From an uncultured Pelagibacteraceae bacterium (lineage in GTDB: Bacteria; Pseudomonadota; Alphaproteobacteria; Pelagibacterales; Pelagibacteraceae): a DNA stretch of 64,000 bases. Positions 183-44,644 of the stretch are shown here, one piece after another. Position numbers and translations under genes: made by a program. Each line of letters opens with the position of its first letter. The first letter of the stretch is position 1. The notes under the pieces were generated by a model. That model was not told the origin of the DNA. It ran no database searches and saw nothing but the letters and a program-made list of their open reading frames with translations. The stretch covers positions 49,757-113,756 of the forward strand of contig CACKMG010000002.1 of assembly GCA_902601235.1 (NCBI GenBank). The letters are read 5' to 3'.

Positions 183-1719
183 TTTTGATCCTATTAAATG
201 AAAAAATTAAGAAAATATACAACAAAATTAATATTACAAATATTTTGTTTCCATAAAGAGAAAATATTGTCGGTTCTAGATATCTTCTATCTATTAAATC
301 AATAAAACCATCTTTTTCATAATCAATTTTTTTTTCAATCTCTCCTAAAGGATTTATAATTACAGTCATTCCATTGTTAGCAGATCTAATTACATATTTT
401 CCACTCTCTATTGCTCTAAAAATACTATGTGCTAAATGTTGTTTTGGTCCGATAGAAGATCCAAACCACCCATCTTCAGAAATGTTAAATATATAATCAT
501 AATTTAAATCTTGTGAAAGTTGTCCACTATAAATTATTTCATAACAAATAAGTGGCAAAAAGGAAAAATTTTGAAAATTTTTTTTTAGTTTAATTATTTT
601 TCTTTTCTCGCCTCGATGAAAAGATCCAAAATTATTTGTTATTGATCTTAGACCAAATTTTTGAAAAAAATTTTCAAAAGGTAAAAATTCACCAAATGGA
701 ACCAAATTTATTTTATAATAATTTTCAATCAAATTTAATTTGTTATCGACAACTGAAAATGAATTAAAATATTTATATTGTCTATTATTTAACAATCTAC
801 TTGTTGTTCCAAGACCAATTAAATGATTTTCTGTAAAATTTTTTTTAAATATGTCATTATATAAAATCAATTGATCTTGATATATGCCGGGTATAATTCC
901 CTCTGGCCATAAAAAAAATATTTTTTTTTCAGGCTCAGGAGCACTAATTTTTATTAATTCACTCAAAACCTCTTCAGTCTCTATATCTTCATAAAATCGA
1001 TCTAGACTTATGTTTGAACTTATAACTCTTATTATGTATGGATTTTTTTTCAATTCTTTACTCAAAAAATTTTTTTTATATTCATTCCCATAAGTTAAAA
1101 ATAAAATTGGAAGCAATAATAGAACACTCAACAATACAATTTCTTTTTTTGATTTTCTCAGAATATAAATTGCAGGTGCAGTAAAAAAAGTAATTACCAA
1201 AAGATTAAATGAATAAGTTCCAATAATTGAGAGAAAACTTAGAAAATTAATATTTTCTGAAAAACTATAAACTATCAAATTCCACGGGAAACCGGTTAAT
1301 ATATTTCCTCTTAAATATTCTATTAATCCAAATAGAAGTGAAAAAAGAAAAAAAGAACTTATTATATTTTTAAAATTAAAAATATAAAAAATTAAAGTAA
1401 CAATTCCATAAAATAAAGATAAAAAAGCAGGAATCAAAAAAATAGCAATTGGTATCAAAAAATTAAAATCTTGTTCAAACGTTAGAGAAATTGTTATCCA
1501 ATATATGTTTGATAAAAAATAACCAAAACCAAATAACCAGCCATAAAAAAAGAAAATTTTCTTTTGAAATTGAATATTCAGTTTTTTAAATAAGAAAATA
1601 AAAAATATGCTAAAAGTAAAAAAATTAATAAAAAAAAAGTTAAATGGTGGAAGACTTAAAGAGCTTAGCGCCCCTAATATTAACAATAAAAAAACTTCTA
1701 TTATAATTTTCTTTTTCAA
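175..1719 (-). CDS. lnt: Apolipoprotein N-acyltransferase
   Basis: 514 aa, multi-TM N-terminus, nitrilase-like domain ([27 protein letters not shown]); neighbour of ybeY/phoH. Confidence 0.9.
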
Positions 1720-2183
1720 TTTAATTTTATAAATTTATGAACTGACTCATATATTTTTTGCTCTTCTTTAAGCATCTTTAAATAATCTTTTTTTCTTATA
1801 TGATCGAAATTCAGTAGATGTAAAAAACCATGTATAAAAATTTTGACTAGTTTTTCTTTGAATTCATATAAACTTAAATTTTTAGGTTTATTTATATAAT
1901 TAATACTTATTATAATATCTCCTAAGTAAATTTCTTTTATTGCTTTAGATTTTTGATGAAATGGAAATGATAAAATATCAGTATGTTTGTTTATATTTCT
2001 AAATTTTTTATTTAATTTTTTAATATTTTCATTATTAGAAAGTAACAAGGTAATGAGTATTTTTTTTTGTTTAAATTGAAATTTTTTTGGAAAAAATTTA
2101 CAAAGGTTGTTAAAAAAAAATTCTTTTTTTTTTAATTTTTTTGACCAGGTTTTACCCTCTGTGAGAACATTAACTTTTATCAT
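1716..2183 (-). CDS. ybeY: Endoribonuclease YbeY (rRNA maturation); start adjusted to MIKVNVLTEG
   Basis: NKKFRNINKHTDILSFPF and HGFLHLLNFDH metal-binding motif (HGxLHLxGyDH-like); next to PhoH-like gene. Confidence 0.88.
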   Translation of the reverse strand: MIKVNVLTEGKTWSKKLKKKEFFFNNLCKFFPKKFQFKQKKILITLLLSNNENIKKLNKKFRNINKHTDILSFPFHQKSKAIKEIYLGDIIISINYINKPKNLSLYEFKEKLVKIFIHGFLHLLNFDHIRKKDYLKMLKEEQKIYESVHKFIKLN

Positions 2184-3174
2184 TATTGTTAGAATATGCT
2201 TTAACAATTTTGGAAACCAAAGGATGTCTAACAACATCAGAATGATCAAAATCTACAACTGAAATTTCATTTAAATGAAATAATAATTTCTTTGATCTTT
2301 CTAGGCCTGAGGCTTGTTTGTTGGGTAAATCAATTTGAGAGGGATCACCATTTACTATAATTTTTGAATTTTCTCCAATTCTAGTTAAAAACATTTTAAT
2401 TTGAGTATCAGTAGCATTTTGAGCCTCGTCTAAAATTGCAAAAGAATTTTTTAAAGTCCTTCCTCTCATAAATGCTAGAGGAGCTATCTCTATATCTCCG
2501 ATTTCAATCATTCTTTGAATTTTTTCAAAATGGAATAAATCATATAAAGAATCGTACAAAGGTCTTAAGTATGGATCGACTTTTTCTTTCATATCACCTG
2601 GTAAAAAACCAAGTCTCTCACCTGCTTCAACTGCAGGGCGGGATAAAATTATTCTTTCAATTTTTTTTTCTAATAACATAGTTAAACCAACAGCAACTGC
2701 TAAAAATGTTTTACCTGTTCCAGCTGGACCAGCAGAAATTATAATATCTTTTTCCCTTAATGCTCTAACGTATTCTTTTTGCTTTTCTGATCTTGGAATT
2801 ATTGATTTTTTTGGGGTCTTAATTATATCGGTTACATTTGAATTTTTTACTTTTTCATTAATCATAAACTGATCGACCGAAGATAAAATATCTTTGTTTT
2901 CAATGCTGCCATTATTTATAAATTGATTAACTAAAAATTGAATTGCATTTTTAACTAATTCATTTTTTTCCTGTGAAGATTTTATCAAAATTGAGTTTCC
3001 TCTTGAATATAAACTAGCACCAGTAATTTTTTCTAAATCTTTCAAATTTTTATTAAATTCTCCAGCGACACCCATTAACAAATCGTTGCTATTAAAGATA
3101 ACACTTAAAGTGTTATTATCGGAATAAACAATTTTAAGAGAAGATTGTATATTTTTTTTTATTGAATTTTTCAA
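2170..3174 (-). CDS. ybeZ: PhoH-like ATPase (YbeZ)
   Basis: SAGPAGTGKTFLAVAVG Walker A, AILDEAQNAT, GDPSQIDLP motifs. Confidence 0.92.
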   Translation of the reverse strand: MKNSIKKNIQSSLKIVYSDNNTLSVIFNSNDLLMGVAGEFNKNLKDLEKITGASLYSRGNSILIKSSQEKNELVKNAIQFLVNQFINNGSIENKDILSSVDQFMINEKVKNSNVTDIIKTPKKSIIPRSEKQKEYVRALREKDIIISAGPAGTGKTFLAVAVGLTMLLEKKIERIILSRPAVEAGERLGFLPGDMKEKVDPYLRPLYDSLYDLFHFEKIQRMIEIGDIEIAPLAFMRGRTLKNSFAILDEAQNATDTQIKMFLTRIGENSKIIVNGDPSQIDLPNKQASGLERSKKLLFHLNEISVVDFDHSDVVRHPLVSKIVKAYSNNNDKS

Positions 3175-22532: not shown

Positions 22533-23092
22533 TTAACTAAGTACCCTTCTTTAGAGCTAATTATAAATTTATCATCTCCAAATTTTTCTCTAATTTTTTT
22601 TCTTAATCTGTGGATATGTGTTTCAACTGTGTGTGTCTCTAACTTAGATTTATGATCCCAAACATTTGACTGAAGTTCTTTAATTTTTATTGGTTTTTTC
22701 GACTTATTTAAATAAACTATAGTATCAATTTCTTTCTCAGTTAATCTTAAAATTTCCAATTTATTTGAAATAGTTCGTGAATTTAAATCAATTTGATATT
22801 TGCCAATTATATAACTTGCTTGATCTTTATAATTTAACTTTAAAAATTCAACGTTTAATTTTTCAATTAATTGGTTAAGTTTTATTGGTAAATCATCTAA
22901 TATAAATTGATTATTTATATTAGGAATTTTTTTTTGAGTTAAAAGTATAAAATTTTCATCTTTTTTTTTATTTAAAATTTGAAGTTCCTCTTTTTTTAAA
23001 TAAGTAATATTAAAATTTAAATTATCTTCAATTTCAGTTAATATTTTATAAATAATTAAAAAATCATATATAATTAATTTTTGATTATACAT
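22529..23092 (-). CDS. OmpR/PhoB-type winged-helix regulator with degenerate receiver (start adjusted to MYNQKLII; ORF extends to 23155)
   Basis: C-terminal wHTH: LTEKEIDTIVYLNKSKKPIKIKELQSNVWDHKSKLETHTVETHIHRLRKKIREKFG...ISSKEGYLVN. Confidence 0.8.
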   Translation of the reverse strand: MYNQKLIIYDFLIIYKILTEIEDNLNFNITYLKKEELQILNKKKDENFILLTQKKIPNINNQFILDDLPIKLNQLIEKLNVEFLKLNYKDQASYIIGKYQIDLNSRTISNKLEILRLTEKEIDTIVYLNKSKKPIKIKELQSNVWDHKSKLETHTVETHIHRLRKKIREKFGDDKFIISSKEGYLVN

Positions 23093-31156: not shown

Positions 31157-32158
31157 ATGATTTTAAAAACATTCAAACTTGAGAAAAAAGTAATCAATAA
31201 TTATAGATTTTTTCTAATCTACGGAAATAATAAGGGTTTTATAGAAGAAATTGTTAAAGATTATCTAAAACCAATACTTTACCAAAATATATATAATTAT
31301 GATGAAAACGAAATACTTCAAAATTTAGAAAACTTTAAAGAAGATATTCTAAATATGTCATTTTTTGATGATAAAAAACTAATCATTATTTCAAGGGTTA
31401 CAGATAAAATTTTCAGTACAGTTGAAGAAATCATCAAAAAAGACGTAAAAGATATTTCAATAATACTAAAAGCTTCCTCGTTAGAAAAAAAATCCAAGAT
31501 AAGAAATTTTTTTGAAAAACAGAAAGAAACCGCTTGTATTCCTGTTTATGAAGATAATTACCAAACCTTAGATGTTATCGTTAAAGATTTTCTTCAAAAA
31601 AAAAAAATTATTCTTTCGCAACAAGTCATAAATATTATAGTTGAAAGAGCTAAGGGTGATCGAATTAATCTTAAAAATGAATTGAATAAGATAGAATATT
31701 TTTCTAAAAATAAAAAAAAAATAGAGCTGGAACAAATATTAGATTTAACAAATTTAGCAGAAAATTATAATGTTTCAGAGTTAGTTGATAATTCATTAGC
31801 TCAAAATAAGAAGAAAACTTTATATATTCTAAATGAAAATAATTTTGCCTCTGATGATTGTATACAAATTGTAAGAGTTTATTTATCTAAATTAAAAAGA
31901 TTGTTAAACATAAAATCAGAGACAATTAAAAATGATAATTTAGATCAAATTATAACTTCTTATAAACCTCCAATTTTTTGGAAAGAAAAAGATATAGTAA
32001 AACAACAGATAAAAATTTGGAACTTTAAAAACATAGAAAATTTGATCATGGATACCAACGAGCTAGAATATCAAATCAAAAAAAACCCAAATTCCTCAAC
32101 AATACTGCTTACAAACTTTATTTTAGAAAAAACATTGCAGCCTAATAATTCGCTTTAA
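31157..32158 (+). CDS. holA: DNA polymerase III delta subunit
   Basis: FFLIYGNNKGFIEEIV; SFFDDKKLIIISR; position after lptE. Confidence 0.85.
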   Translation: MILKTFKLEKKVINNYRFFLIYGNNKGFIEEIVKDYLKPILYQNIYNYDENEILQNLENFKEDILNMSFFDDKKLIIISRVTDKIFSTVEEIIKKDVKDISIILKASSLEKKSKIRNFFEKQKETACIPVYEDNYQTLDVIVKDFLQKKKIILSQQVINIIVERAKGDRINLKNELNKIEYFSKNKKKIELEQILDLTNLAENYNVSELVDNSLAQNKKKTLYILNENNFASDDCIQIVRVYLSKLKRLLNIKSETIKNDNLDQIITSYKPPIFWKEKDIVKQQIKIWNFKNIENLIMDTNELEYQIKKNPNSSTILLTNFILEKTLQPNNSL

Positions 32159-32981
32159 TAATATCTATAATTTTGTTTAATTGATCTAGATCATGATAGG
32201 CAAAAGATATTGTGCCCTTATTTTTTTTATTATTCTTTATAGAAACTGATAATCCAATTTTGTTACTTATATTCTCCTCTAAATTCTTTATATTTGGATC
32301 GATGGATTTACTTACAGAGGCTTTTTTTTTAAAAATTTTAACAAAATTCTCTGCTTGTCTTACAGATAATTTTTTTTCAATAATTTTATTAGCAACAAAT
32401 AATGCATTATCTAAGCCAACTAAAATTTTAGCATGCCCAGGGCTAATTTTTTTTTCCTCTATAAATTTCAAAACTTCTGGAGGTAAATTAAGTAATCGAA
32501 TTGAATTTGTTATATAACTTCTACTTTTTCCAATAAATTTTGAAACTTTTTCTTGGTCATAGGAGAAATCATCTATTAATCTTTTATATCCTTGAGCTTC
32601 TTCTAATGGATTTAAATCATGTCTTTGAACATTTTCAACTATCGCGAATTCCAAAGATTTTAGATCATCCGCCTCAGTAACCACAACAGGAATATCATGA
32701 AGACCGGCTTTTCTTGCTGCAATCCATCTCCTCTCGCCTGCTATAATCTCAAATTTAGAATTTTCTGTTTCTGATTTTCTAACTATAATTGGCTGAATTA
32801 CCCCTCGTTCTTTAATAGAATTTGTTAAATCATTTAAGTTTTCTTCATCAAAATTTTTTCTAGGTTGAAATTTGTTTGGAAGTATATCACTTAATAAAAG
32901 TTTGTTTGTTTTACTTTGGACCTTTGTTTCACCTATTAAAGAAGATAAACCTCTGCCCAACCCTTTTTTAATTTTATTCAT
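32142..32981 (-). CDS. parB: Chromosome partitioning protein ParB
   Basis: GLGRGLSSLIGE, PRKNFDEENLNDLTNSIKERGVIQPIIVR, AGERRWIAARKAGL. Confidence 0.97.
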   Translation of the reverse strand: MNKIKKGLGRGLSSLIGETKVQSKTNKLLLSDILPNKFQPRKNFDEENLNDLTNSIKERGVIQPIIVRKSETENSKFEIIAGERRWIAARKAGLHDIPVVVTEADDLKSLEFAIVENVQRHDLNPLEEAQGYKRLIDDFSYDQEKVSKFIGKSRSYITNSIRLLNLPPEVLKFIEEKKISPGHAKILVGLDNALFVANKIIEKKLSVRQAENFVKIFKKKASVSKSIDPNIKNLEENISNKIGLSVSIKNNKKNKGTISFAYHDLDQLNKIIDIIKANY

Positions 32982-33775
32982 TATGCTGCACTCCCAACTT
33001 TATTTTCTTGAGCCATGAACTCATCTGTAAAACTATAATATGACTTACTGCCTGGACAATTCTTGTCATAAATCAATACCGGAATACCATGAGATGGTGC
33101 TTCTGATAATCTTACGTTTCGAGGTATTACAGTTTGGTAAACTTTATCTTTGAAATAATCTCTCGCTTCTTGTTCAACCTGCGATGAAAGTTTATTTCTT
33201 CTGTCATACATAGTTAAAAGTATGCCTTGAATTTCTAATTCAGGATTTAAATTGGCTTTAATTCTTTCAATCGTCTTCATTAGCTGTGTAAGTCCCTCTA
33301 ATGCAAAAAATTCTGTTTGGAGTGGCACAAGCAGTGAGTTAGATGATACCAAAGCCATTACAGTTAAAAGACTCAAAGAAGGGGGGCAATCTATGAGAAT
33401 ATAATCATATAATCCTCTAGAATCATTTAAATACGCGGTTAATTTAGCCTTAAGTATAAAGGCTCTATCGCTGTCACCAGCCGTCTCAACCTCTAATCCA
33501 GATAAATCTACATTGGATGATATTAAATCAAGATTTTGAAAGTTTGTTTTTTTAATTACGTTTGAAATCGACATTGTGCCATTGAGAATCCCATAAATTG
33601 TCTGATCGGATTGAGAGGTGTTGGACAATCCTAATCCTGTGGTAGCATTTCCTTGAGGGTCTAGATCGATTACTAAAATTTTTTTACCAAGTTGAGATAA
33701 CGCCGACGCTAAATTAATTACAGTTGTTGTTTTTCCAACTCCACCCTTTTGATTTATAATTGAAATTATTTTCAT
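32981..33775 (-). CDS. parA: Chromosome partitioning ATPase ParA
   Basis: INQKGGVGKTTTVINLA, IDLDPQGNATTGLG, RNVRLSEAPSHGIP. Confidence 0.97.
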   Translation of the reverse strand: MKIISIINQKGGVGKTTTVINLASALSQLGKKILVIDLDPQGNATTGLGLSNTSQSDQTIYGILNGTMSISNVIKKTNFQNLDLISSNVDLSGLEVETAGDSDRAFILKAKLTAYLNDSRGLYDYILIDCPPSLSLLTVMALVSSNSLLVPLQTEFFALEGLTQLMKTIERIKANLNPELEIQGILLTMYDRRNKLSSQVEQEARDYFKDKVYQTVIPRNVRLSEAPSHGIPVLIYDKNCPGSKSYYSFTDEFMAQENKVGSAA

Positions 33776-34419
33776 GAAATCTTTTTTTTAATTTTTTTGA
33801 TATTTAATATAAATGAGTCGTTGCTTGTTAAACTTTTTTTTTCTTCATAATCTAAATCCCACTCTTGAAGTGTTTCATTAAGAATTTTTCTTCCACTAGT
33901 TCCCATAAAAAAGATAATATTTTTATATTTTTTAAAATTTTCATTAACTAAGTTTAAAATCACAGGCATTGGCTTAAACGCCCTGGACATAATTGTGCCT
34001 GTTTCAATATTTTTAAGTGAAAAAATATCTTTCTGAATTATTTCTGTATTTAAATTTAATTTTTTTGAAACTTCTCTAAGGAAAGCACATTTGTGGTAGC
34101 TTTTTTCATAAAGGTTTACTTTCAGGTCATTTTTAATTTTTTTCATCACTATAGCCACAATTAATCCTGGCATTCCACCCCCTGAACCTAAATCTGAGGT
34201 TGTATTACAATTTAAATCAACAAAATCAATGATTTGCGCGGAATCTATTATATGGCGCTCTCTTATTGCCTCTTTTTCATACATTTTTTTACTTATTATA
34301 TTAATTTTACGATTTTTTTCCTGTATCATCGTAATTAGAGTCTCAAGCTCATTACAAGTTTCACGTGAAACATTCAAATTGGAAATTTTGGAATAAGAAT
34401 TTAAAATTAAGTTGTCCAT
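33772..34419 (-). CDS. rsmG: 16S rRNA (guanine527-N7)-methyltransferase
   Basis: NVSRETCNELE, SDLGSGGGMPGLIVAI, HIIDS; parA-adjacent. Confidence 0.94.
   Translation of the reverse strand: MDNLILNSYSKISNLNVSRETCNELETLITMIQEKNRKINIISKKMYEKEAIRERHIIDSAQIIDFVDLNCNTTSDLGSGGGMPGLIVAIVMKKIKNDLKVNLYEKSYHKCAFLREVSKKLNLNTEIIQKDIFSLKNIETGTIMSRAFKPMPVILNLVNENFKKYKNIIFFMGTSGRKILNETLQEWDLDYEEKKSLTSNDSFILNIKKIKKKIS
34357..34372. promoter_or_regulatory. parS centromere-like site within rsmG
   Basis: AGTTTCACGTGAAACA; 14-bp perfect palindrome GTTTCACGTGAAAC; one mismatch to TGTTTCACGTGAAACA; about 0.6 kb upstream of parA. Confidence 0.92.
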
Positions 34420-37787: not shown

Positions 37788-39737
37788 TTAATTTTGTAAT
37801 ATCTTTAAGTAAAGATCCTCCAAATTTTTAGTAAACTTATTAGAATCAAATAATGATGAAGTTTTGACAGAATTCTTAAAGGACTTTTTAAGTTTATCAA
37901 ATTTTTCAGGATTTGTTCCTAATTCAATTGCAAGATTTTGATAATCTTTTTTGTTGTTTGTTACAAGGTCATTCATTGCAATACAATTTAGTATACTTGC
38001 GCCTACTCTAGATTGAAATGAGTTACCTTTTAACGTAATAATTGGTGTACCCATTCTAGCAGCATCACTTGCTGTTGTGTGTGCATTATACGGAAATGTA
38101 TCTAAAAATAAGTCTGCTAGTTCTATACGTTTTAAATGTTCATCGTTTGATAAATGATCTGCTAATACAATTCTGTCAGGATTGATGCCTTTTATTTCTG
38201 CCTCTTTTTTTAAATTCAATGTTGCTTTTTCATTTGATTTTAAAATCCACAGAACACTATTATGTACATTATTTAATATTTTCATCCATATTTCAAATAT
38301 ATCAGGCGTAATTTTATAATTATTGTTGAAGCTACAGTAAATAAATGCGCTCTCTGGAAGTCCAAAATCACTGCGTTTAAATTCCTTTTTTGATATATCC
38401 CTACACTCCATATTTGGTTGGTAACAATTAGGTAAATATAAAACTTTTTCAAAATAATGTTTAAAATTTTCTTTTGGAATTATTATTTCATCGGCAATTA
38501 TATAATCCATATAATCAGCTCCTATTGTTCCTGGATATCCTAAATAATTAATTTGAATGGGCGCTACACGACTTGAAAATAGTCCACTTCTTGGGTTACC
38601 TGTCAATCCAGACAAGTCTATTGCAATATCTAACTCTAAGTTCCTAGTAATATCTAAAACCTCTTTGTCCGAGACTTTGTGAATATCTTTAAATTGATTG
38701 AAATATTTAATTACTTCAATTCTCCACTTATCATTTTTTTTTGCACCATATGAAAACCCAAATATATCAAATTTTGTTTTATCGTGATTTTTAAAAACAT
38801 CCATCATCAACTGAAGAACTGGATGATCATGAAAGTCACCAGAAAAATAACCAATTCTTGGCTTTTTATGATTATACTTTTTGGTAATTGGCTCAACTTT
38901 AAGATTTTTTGTTACTTTATTTTTAACAAAAATTTCTGCCACATTTTTTGCATGTTCGGGGTTATCGGATATTCCTAAAAAAGAAAATGGTTCCATTACT
39001 TTGATTTTTTTTTCAAGGTCAGTGTTTATCTTTTCATTCAATTTATTGTAATTACTCCAGTCACATATAATCATGCTGAAATGTAAAACTCTGCCTAAAT
39101 TATATTCATATTCAGGTTTTAGATCGAACACCTTCCTATAGTTATAAAGAGCCTCTTCATAACGTTTAAGATCTTTAAGGGCATTTCCTTTATTATTGTA
39201 TGCTTCAATAAAATTAGGATTTATTTCAATAGCTCTATCGTAGCTATAAAGAGCTTCATCATAACGATTAAGATCTTTTAATGTAATTCCTCTATTACCG
39301 TGAGAAAAAAAATGATTTGGATTTATTCTAATAGCTTTATCATAACTCTGCAAAGCTTCATCATAACGTCTCATTTCTTGAAGAATAACACCTCGATTAC
39401 TGTAAGCATCAGCAAAATTTGGATTTAAATTAATAGCTTTATCAAAACTTGTAAGTGCCTCTTCATAACGATTTAGGTTTTTTAAAGCATTTCCCAAATT
39501 ACTATGTGCTGAAGCATTATCGGGTTTAATTAATAAGGATCTTTCTAAATAATTAATACCCTGTTGAGTTTTTTCTAATTGTACACAAGCAGTGCCTAAT
39601 AGAAATAGAAGCTGAGGATTGTTTTCTTCTGTTTTAATTAATTCTAAATATAAATTAAGAGCTTTATTTATTTGACCGTTTTTGTGGAAATCTACAGCTT
39701 TTTCAATCAAATTTTTTTGATTGTTGTCATTAGACAT
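37788..39737 (-). CDS. TPR protein with SPINDLY/OGT-like (GT41) C-terminal domain
   Basis: N-terminal tandem TPRs; C-terminal RIGYFSGDFHDHPVLQLM, DIAIDLSGLTGNPRSGLFSSRVAPIQINYLGYPGTIGADYMDYIIAD, FLDTFPYNAHTTASDAARMGTPIITLKG. Confidence 0.9.
   Translation of the reverse strand: MSNDNNQKNLIEKAVDFHKNGQINKALNLYLELIKTEENNPQLLFLLGTACVQLEKTQQGINYLERSLLIKPDNASAHSNLGNALKNLNRYEEALTSFDKAINLNPNFADAYSNRGVILQEMRRYDEALQSYDKAIRINPNHFFSHGNRGITLKDLNRYDEALYSYDRAIEINPNFIEAYNNKGNALKDLKRYEEALYNYRKVFDLKPEYEYNLGRVLHFSMIICDWSNYNKLNEKINTDLEKKIKVMEPFSFLGISDNPEHAKNVAEIFVKNKVTKNLKVEPITKKYNHKKPRIGYFSGDFHDHPVLQLMMDVFKNHDKTKFDIFGFSYGAKKNDKWRIEVIKYFNQFKDIHKVSDKEVLDITRNLELDIAIDLSGLTGNPRSGLFSSRVAPIQINYLGYPGTIGADYMDYIIADEIIIPKENFKHYFEKVLYLPNCYQPNMECRDISKKEFKRSDFGLPESAFIYCSFNNNYKITPDIFEIWMKILNNVHNSVLWILKSNEKATLNLKKEAEIKGINPDRIVLADHLSNDEHLKRIELADLFLDTFPYNAHTTASDAARMGTPIITLKGNSFQSRVGASILNCIAMNDLVTNNKKDYQNLAIELGTNPEKFDKLKKSFKNSVKTSSLFDSNKFTKNLEDLYLKILQN
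39120..39530 (-). repeat. 102-bp tandem coding repeats (34-aa TPRs)
   Basis: At least 4 similar units about 102 bp apart, recognisable by the recurring 'tcataacg' (about 39160, 39260, 39364, 39463). Confidence 0.75.
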
Positions 39738-42535: not shown

Positions 42536-43537
42536 TTAATAGTCTTTTACAGTCTTTACTAAATATTCCATCATATTTGGGTCCGTATCAGGGAGAACCC
42601 CATGACCTAAATTGAATATGTATGGATGATCTTTAAAAATGTCTAAATATTTTATTATATTTTTCTTTAAATTTTCTTTATCTGTTAATAATATTTTCGG
42701 GTCTAGTCCCCCTTGTATAGGTATATCAATTTCTTTACTAATCTTTATTGGATCTATATCGTAATCTATACAAATTGCATCAGGTTTAACAATTTCGCAA
42801 AAATTTTTGTAATTTTTTATACCTTTTGGAAAACATATAACGGGTACATTTAGGGTTTTGACATATTCTACTATATTTAATGTTGGTATGAAAACAAAGT
42901 TTGGTAAATCTTTTTCATCCAATAAACCTGCCCAACTATCAAAAATTTGGATTATTTCAGCTCCATTTTCAATTTGGTTTTTAATGTGGATTTTTAAAAA
43001 TTTTTCTAAAATTATTAAAATTCTATTAATTAAAAATTCATCTTTAAAAAAATCATCCTTTAATTTTAATTTAGGGGATTGTTGATTAATTATATAAACT
43101 AATAAAGTCCATGGAGCGCCAACAAAACCTATGGTACTTTTGTTCTCTGTGAGTTTATTTTTACTAACTAAGTTAATGGCTTTATAAACTGGATAAACTT
43201 TCTCAACAAAATCTATGTCATCTAACTTAGAGGTTCTATTTAAATCAAATTTACCCAAAACAGGTCCAAAATTTTTCTTAAATTCTACCTTTTGATGCAA
43301 ACCATACGGCAACATTAATATATCTGAAAAAATTATAGCTGCATCTAAATCAAATCTTTTTAAAGGTTGAAGAGTAATTTCAGATGATAAATTTTCATTC
43401 AAACAAAGTTTTATAAAATCTGGATTTTTTTTTCTAATTTCCCTGAATTCTGGTAAATATCTACCAGCCTGTCTCATTATCCATAAAGGATTAATACTGG
43501 TTTTTTTATTTAATATTACTTCTTTTATTGGTGACAT
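42536..43537 (-). CDS. hemE: Uroporphyrinogen decarboxylase
   Basis: PLWIMRQAGRYLPEFRE, FSDILMLPYGL, FNLGHGVLPDTDP. Confidence 0.97.
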   Translation of the reverse strand: MSPIKEVILNKKTSINPLWIMRQAGRYLPEFREIRKKNPDFIKLCLNENLSSEITLQPLKRFDLDAAIIFSDILMLPYGLHQKVEFKKNFGPVLGKFDLNRTSKLDDIDFVEKVYPVYKAINLVSKNKLTENKSTIGFVGAPWTLLVYIINQQSPKLKLKDDFFKDEFLINRILIILEKFLKIHIKNQIENGAEIIQIFDSWAGLLDEKDLPNFVFIPTLNIVEYVKTLNVPVICFPKGIKNYKNFCEIVKPDAICIDYDIDPIKISKEIDIPIQGGLDPKILLTDKENLKKNIIKYLDIFKDHPYIFNLGHGVLPDTDPNMMEYLVKTVKDY

Positions 43538-43819
43538 ATAAATAATTAAATATATCTAATTGTTTATTTAGTATAACCTGTGAATAAAGGTGATTAAATT
43601 TAATAAACATTTTTCTAACTTTTTATTAACACTTAGATCCATCAATACATTTAATATATATGAAAAATTGAAGCTTATTAACAAAACTGAGAAATTACTC
43701 AATAAAGTTATACATTTGTTTAAAAACGTTAATAAAATGCATGTTTTACAAGGATAATTTTAAATTTTTAAAATTGTTTAATTTGATTTAAATAATAAAA
43801 AGTTATTAACATTTAATAC
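43538..43819. other. oriC: Putative chromosomal replication origin (oriC)
   Basis: 282-bp AT-rich divergent gap between hemE and ppsR. DnaA-box-like 9-mers: TTATTAACA at 43623-43631, 43675-43683, 43803-43811 (+); TTATTCACA at 43579-43587 (-); TTATTAACG at 43727-43735 (-); TTATACATT at 43708-43716 (+). Alphaproteobacterial oriC is known beside hemE. Confidence 0.8.
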
Positions 43820-44644
43820 ATGACTAATACATATCAAATATACTTGATTTCAGACTCGACAGGAGAAACTCTTGATAGAATTTTTTTAGCTATAAAAGCT
43901 CAATTTAAAAATATAGAATACAAGATACACACATATTCTTTTACAAGAACTGAAAATCAAATACTCAAAATTTTATCTGATGCTGAGAAAAATTCAAATT
44001 CGATAATTTTATATTCAATAGTAGATAGTAGTTTGGCTAAATATCTCGCAAATATTAGTAGTGATAAAAAAATACCATGTTTTGGAGTTCTTGGAGATCT
44101 GATATTAAGCTTTTCTAAGCTTTTAAATCAAAAAGCATCTCACCAACCAAGCGGACAACATGTTTTAGATGATGAATATTATAAAAGAATAGAGGCCATA
44201 CAGTTTACAATGAATCATGATGATGGAAACTTGGTAAAAGAAATAAATAAGTCAGATATTATTCTTTTAGGGGTCAGTAGAACCAGCAAAACACCAACGG
44301 CAATATATCTGGCTAATAAAGGTTTTAAAACATCAAACATTCCTCTAGTAAATAATAATTCCATTCCAAAATTATTAAGAGAAAACCCTAAAATTTCTTG
44401 TGTTATAGGATTAAGTACAGAACCAGAAAGACTTGCAGATATTAGAAAAAATAGAATGAACTCGCTTAAGGAAACAGAAAATAAATCTTATACAGATCTT
44501 GAAAAAATAAAAGTAGAAGTTGAAGAAGCAAAAAAAACTTTTAAGAGATATAAGTGGCCTTTAATTGATGTTACAAGAAAGTCAGTAGAGGAAACAGCAG
44601 CATCAGTTATTAAAATTTACGAAATATATAAACAAAATGTTTGA
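43820..44644 (+). CDS. ppsR: Pyruvate, phosphate dikinase/PEP synthase regulatory protein (DUF299; RP001-type)
   Basis: YLISDSTGETLDRIF, LLGVSRTSKTPTAIYLANKGFKTSNIPLV, SVEETAASVI. Confidence 0.93.
   Translation: MTNTYQIYLISDSTGETLDRIFLAIKAQFKNIEYKIHTYSFTRTENQILKILSDAEKNSNSIILYSIVDSSLAKYLANISSDKKIPCFGVLGDLILSFSKLLNQKASHQPSGQHVLDDEYYKRIEAIQFTMNHDDGNLVKEINKSDIILLGVSRTSKTPTAIYLANKGFKTSNIPLVNNNSIPKLLRENPKISCVIGLSTEPERLADIRKNRMNSLKETENKSYTDLEKIKVEVEEAKKTFKRYKWPLIDVTRKSVEETAASVIKIYEIYKQNV

Follow-up and report, generated by a model that had tools for sequence, protein, structure and literature searches.

In Caulobacter crescentus, the replication origin (Cori, 404 bp) is bounded by hemE and the COG1806 gene CC_0001 and, besides DnaA boxes and an AT-rich stretch, contains an IHF site and a set of five CtrA sites (PMC1914354). 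The origin of Rickettsia prowazekii lies between the same boundary genes and has an AT content of 82.55% (PMC1914354). In Escherichia coli oriC, low-affinity DnaA-ATP sites spaced 2 bp apart, that is with an 11-bp pitch, are found beside stronger R boxes (PMC6727663). For Mycoplasma hominis, an unrelated lineage whose genome is also AT-rich, the 9-mer TTATTAACA upstream of dnaA was proposed as DnaA box, as a prediction only (PMC2751442). We found no account of a SAR11 origin in the open literature searched, origin databases such as DoriC being outside this search. Judged from its own sequence and that of its relatives, the 282-bp hemE–ppsR gap described here is very probably the oriC of a SAR11 chromosome. 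Its location is textbook for Alphaproteobacteria and its box usage is a lineage variant; it departs from the textbook, as a variant of mild interest, in its box composition, in the phasing of the array and in the absence of a CtrA layer.

The window, the whole 64,000-nucleotide stretch of DNA that was analysed, comprises bases 49757–113756 of contig C2. Its own genome (839 kb, 44 contigs) is 62.5% complete, and among named records its closest relatives come from single cells and MAGs of Pelagibacteraceae (SAR11). Between the end of hemE at 43537 and the start of ppsR at 43820 the gap measures exactly 282 bp, as the initial annotation had given it, compared with 384 bp for the R. prowazekii origin. 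All genes diverge from it, parB to hemE on the minus and ppsR to dnaQ on the plus strand, again as annotated. The locus has the arrangement of the hemE–COG1806 type of alphaproteobacterial oriC, in which hemE and a COG1806/DUF299 gene diverge from the intergenic origin, and its genes are ordered as at the origins of Caulobacter and Rickettsia (PMC1914354), in line with the earlier reference to alphaproteobacterial origins beside hemE. For comparison we used 94 SAR11 loci having both hemE and ppsR, the window counted among them, and two complete relatives, G012 (1,343,202 bp) and G082 (1,437,930 bp), whose PpsR proteins are 76–80% identical to that of the window. The length of the gap is nearly constant (261–291 bp) across the 94 loci. 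Non-redundant SAR11 gaps contain 81–87% AT, compared with 71.5% for the G012 genome, and the mean of 84% for SAR11 gaps is close to the R. prowazekii value. A tRNA was the sole Rfam match in the window. Across the order, a search for PpsR gave zero matches in the listed genomes of a second family (G102 to G129), many of them more than 90% complete.

Table 1. Predicted origin, its DnaA-box-like sites and neighbouring features, in window coordinates.
Feature	Position	Strand	Evidence
oriC (very probable), hemE–ppsR intergenic region	43538–43819		Orthologous gaps, box cluster, GC-skew trough
hemE, gene bounding alphaproteobacterial oriC on the left	42536–43537	-	TIGR01464 above cut-off
ppsR-type kinase/pyrophosphorylase (DUF299/COG1806), right boundary	43820–44644	+	PF03618 2e-87; NF003742 above cut-off
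DnaA box B1, TTATTCACA, canonical R-type TTATNCACA	43579–43587	-	Exact in 60/94 aligned gaps; positions 3–9 at least 88% conserved
B2, DnaA-box-like TAATAAACA, first of tandem array	43601–43609	+	One mismatch to TTATAAACA; AACA core conserved
B3, TTTCTAACT, degenerate middle of array; TTATAAACA, ATATTCACA or ATATTAACG in many relatives	43612–43620	+	Alignment, spacing
DnaA box B4, TTATTAACA, third of array	43623–43631	+	T1, T2, A7 and A9 at least 92%, middle variable; TTATTAACA in 17/93
B5, TTATTAACA copy particular to near relatives	43675–43683	+	Exact in 3/74 aligned gaps; TTATTAACT in 17
B6, weak box-like TTATACATT	43708–43716	+	Exact TTATTAACA in just 6/93 relatives
Weak box-like TTTTAAACA within conserved TGTTTAA block	43717–43725	-	Alignment
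DnaA box B7, TTATTAACG in window	43727–43735	-	TTATTAACA in 64/93 relatives; A7 100%, C8 98%
DnaA box B8, TTATTAACA	43803–43811	+	Of 94: TTATTAACA 39, TTATACACA 15, TTATAAACA 6; TTAT at least 93%, A7 100%
DNA unwinding element (probable), between B7 and B8	43752–43805		Suggested by low stability of 45-bp window at 43760
parS core GTTTCACGTGAAAC in 5′ end of rsmG	34358–34371		Orthologous place in two complete relatives
parB	32142–32981	-	PF02195, PF17762, PF23552
Putative parA	32981–33775	-	ORF; ParA/MinD-type sequence; ortholog adjoins parB in G012 and G082

The three TTATTAACA copies and the single TTATTCACA, TTATTAACG and TTATACATT words listed by the initial annotation were all recovered in place (Table 1), the only correction being that the last TTATTAACA ends 8 bases, not 9 bp, before the ppsR ATG. 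Three copies of TTATTAACA were obtained in one of 20,000 dinucleotide shuffles of the gap (P about 5e-5), and four matches to TTAT[TAC][AC]ACA in none of 5,000. Some 9-mer repeated at least three times was present in about 40% of shuffled gaps. Since such unnamed repeats are common in shuffled AT-rich sequence, a repeat in a single genome is weak evidence alone, and the case therefore rests on comparison with relatives. In the whole window TTATTAACA occurs six times (3.3 expected), and half of these copies fall in the gap, which makes up 0.4% of the sequence.

All 9-mers were counted in the 94 gaps relative to the genome without a prior motif. In these gaps, which share descent so that counts across relatives are not independent, TTATTAACA was the most enriched 9-mer (108-fold; present in 86 of 94 gaps, with 149 copies compared with 1.4 expected). 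The next distinct words in the ranking were TTATTCACA (152-fold; 67 copies, 0.4 expected; 63 of 94 gaps) and TTATAAACA (54-fold; 58 copies, 1.1 expected). When the set was thinned to less than 60% identity, TTATTAACA remained in 10 of 12 gaps. Conservation of the 9-mers in orthologous gaps, on which the initial annotation had made its proposal depend, was thus observed, and the top rank of TTATTAACA supports the suggestion that this A/T-rich form of the site is the DnaA box preferred by the lineage. Counted as TTAT[TAC][AC]ACA per 300 bp, the hemE–ppsR gap has more boxes than any other part of either complete chromosome (three in G012 and four in G082, with two at the next best place elsewhere); on the window's own contig the gap has four and the next cluster one. 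Searches with the strict TTATNCACA recover one box only in the window gap.

Alignment of B1 and B7, both reverse, and of B8, which is forward, shows TTAT and ACA to be 85–100% conserved and positions 5 and 6 to be the most variable, and one and the same site carries TTATTCACA, TTATTAACA, TTATACACA, TTATAAACA or TTATCAACA in differing species. Two of the sites need a reading different from the initial one: conservation is lacking for the copy at 43675, and the site at 43727, which looks degenerate in the window, is an exact TTATTAACA in most relatives. Between B7 and B8, most SAR11 gaps also contain a conserved GTTTTACA (43743–43750) with the consensus CTTGTTTTACAAG, an inverted repeat that is not a DnaA box.

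The sites at 43601, 43612 and 43623, overlooked as a group by the earlier reader, lie on one strand with an exact pitch of 11 bp (2-bp spacing). Across the 94 gaps, same-strand box pairs with at most one mismatch occurred 78 times at a distance of 11 bp compared with 1.5 in shuffles, and 54 times at 22 bp compared with 1.3. This is the pitch of the weak E. coli sites (PMC6727663); the SAR11 arrays differ from those of E. coli in location and sequence, with three predicted boxes in one array. The host dnaA gene is located on the same contig, about 65 kb from the gap in the direction of hemE. The DNA-binding domain of its product aligns with that of E. coli DnaA in structure 1J1V, including RPRQ and RDHTT, and because this domain is E. 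coli-like, the usual DnaA box is expected. TTATTAACA differs from the E. coli box TTATCCACA at two positions, and the A replacing C at position 6 probably weakens DnaA binding.

The A/T stretch at 43760–43805, proposed earlier as unwinding element, is indeed very unstable, ranking within the bottom 0.7% of all 45-bp windows in the 64 kb by stability, but dozens of other places are equally weak. An unwinding element between B7 and B8 is a probable assignment that makes for a weak call in so AT-rich a genome.

The GC-skew check proposed by the initial annotation showed a trough at hemE–ppsR in both complete relatives. At ppsR, cumulative skew reaches 98.9% (G012) and 99.2% (G082) of the full trough depth; positions lower than this make up 1.2% and 0.9% of the chromosome, respectively. 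The exact minima lie 30–31 kb toward the hemE side and the best symmetric half-circle fits 26–27 kb toward the ppsR side. As the two methods are offset to opposite sides, the skew brackets the region, with the switch within about 30 kb of the locus, and does not mark the exact gap. A perfect parS core occurs exactly once per complete chromosome, in rsmG and 7–8 kb from the gap toward hemE; the window has its core at a distance of 9.2 kb, and parAB are likewise close to the predicted origin. A second parS at 42–57 of the window, found by a search allowing up to three mismatches, is a poor site and was not regarded as real. Together, the conserved boxes and the skew trough in two complete relatives support the original reading of the gap as chromosome replication origin.

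The locus L037 (uncultured Pelagibacteraceae AG-426-I10, 1347–3000) has a hemE–ppsR gap of 1654 bp, in which ppsR is set off from the box array by two inserted genes, encoding a SAM methyltransferase and a LicD-like protein. Beside hemE, the array keeps four boxes, TTATCCACA, TTATCAACA, TTATTCACA and TTATAAACA. Because the array is kept despite the insertion, the boxes, including the one normally abutting ppsR, do not appear to be tied to ppsR, and the earlier idea that initiation is coupled to ppsR expression finds no support. Caution is needed here, as L037 is one single-cell assembly in which the ppsR frame is broken after about 120 codons by a frameshift or an assembly error.

According to a 2002 report by Brassinga, CtrA and IHF sites are said to occur in Rickettsia as well; the window gap has none, though not every origin of the hemE–COG1806 type need have them. 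A motif search of this gap found neither TTAA-N7-TTAA nor GANTC nor an IHF consensus, an absence that the initial annotation had not pointed out and that, together with the length of 282 bp, sets the gap apart from Cori. Across the 94 gaps we counted 37 TTAA-N7-TTAA sites compared with 23 ± 5 expected, and 28 gaps hold one. This excess, which is not a clear enrichment, is explicable because tandem TTATTAACA at 11-bp pitch creates that motif. The IHF motif was present in 18 of the 94 gaps, again no clear enrichment, and an IHF site in the window gap was rejected. GANTC, the CcrM target, was found once in the 94 gaps with about 13 expected, a scarcity at the origin that is of note because a CcrM homolog was reported in SAR11 in 2014 (PMC3973325). 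The complete G012 encodes four winged-helix response regulators, of which one is called PhoB and none CtrA; the best G012 score with the CtrA model, which represents a Rhodobacter-type CtrA, was 133 bits compared with a cut-off of 350. Probably, CtrA takes no part at the SAR11 origin. A degenerate winged-helix response regulator is located near the origin at 22541–22750 of the window (G000:C2:72297–72506), and its G012 counterpart, 18 kb from ppsR, is without a recognised receiver domain.

Could the TTATTAACA sites serve another protein? The word contains TTAA, and the two-copy match to the CtrA consensus in 28 gaps might suggest half-sites of a response regulator of the CtrA type. Such half-sites would require TTAA, whereas the alignment shows TTAT..ACA to be conserved and positions 5 and 6 to vary freely (at B8, T62/A34 and A78/C21); moreover, canonical TTATTCACA or TTATACACA occupy the same sites in relatives. 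Since TTAT-n-n-ACA is kept and TTATTCACA and TTATTAACA interchange at the same site, the sites are best read as DnaA boxes, not as CtrA half-sites, and CtrA sites were rejected on this position-wise conservation and the absence of an identified CtrA. The sites might instead be ordinary elements of divergent hemE and ppsR promoters, for which the position of B8 so near the ppsR ATG could be quoted, but L037 kept its array though two genes part it from ppsR. Either role, half-site or promoter element, is therefore improbable.

A different objection would be that the gap is merely the ancestral origin neighbourhood and that replication of the SAR11 chromosome now starts at another place. Rearrangement at the origin is known in Wolbachia and relatives (PMC1914354), and in G012 and G082 alike some 30 kb separate the skew extreme from the gap. 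The gap nevertheless falls inside the trough, with the two methods erring to opposite sides, its boxes are conserved, no comparable box cluster exists elsewhere on either complete chromosome and the single parS is nearby, all of which makes a relocated origin highly improbable. Chance accumulation of AT-rich words where AT content is so high would readily account for a thrice-repeated 9-mer as such, given its frequency in shuffles; with the result for the named word and its 108-fold enrichment over the orthologous gaps of 94 genomes, the likelihood of this explanation is negligible.

If the gap is the origin, the canonical box B1 would be occupied first by DnaA. ATP-DnaA might then cooperatively fill the weaker TTATTAACA-type sites, among them the same-strand B2–B3–B4 array, along with B7, and this filling could open the A/T-rich stretch between B7 and B8. 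After loading of the helicase, two forks would leave through hemE and ppsR, and segregation may proceed via the one parS site within rsmG, with the ParAB proteins encoded beside it. It is possible, rather than probable, that this is a streamlined SAR11 origin without CtrA, IHF and GANTC, in which a canonical box is combined with a phased weak TTATTAACA-type array and the DnaA-ATP level alone might gate initiation.

Few cells on Earth are as numerous as those of SAR11. With the origin placed precisely and a DnaA box specific to the clade, growth rate could be read from origin-to-terminus coverage in metagenomes and SAR11 chromosomes would have a defined start point; the origin fragment could serve in building replicating plasmids. 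The locus also provides an example of an alphaproteobacterial origin that apparently functions with no CtrA and, if the gating proposal is true, of a streamlined, DnaA-ATP-gated origin in a bacterial group that ranks among the most abundant in the ocean.

Two further observations concern the gene neighbourhood. Between mnmE and rho, the window carries a TPR and glycosyltransferase family 41 (O-GlcNAc-transferase-like) gene at 37788–39737, whose best G012 relative is located elsewhere (1.288 Mb, 36% identity) and for which G082 has only weak matches. The hemH gene beside oriC in G082 (911699–912649) is 29% identical to that of the window, compared with 60–98% for its neighbours, suggesting a probable gene replacement.
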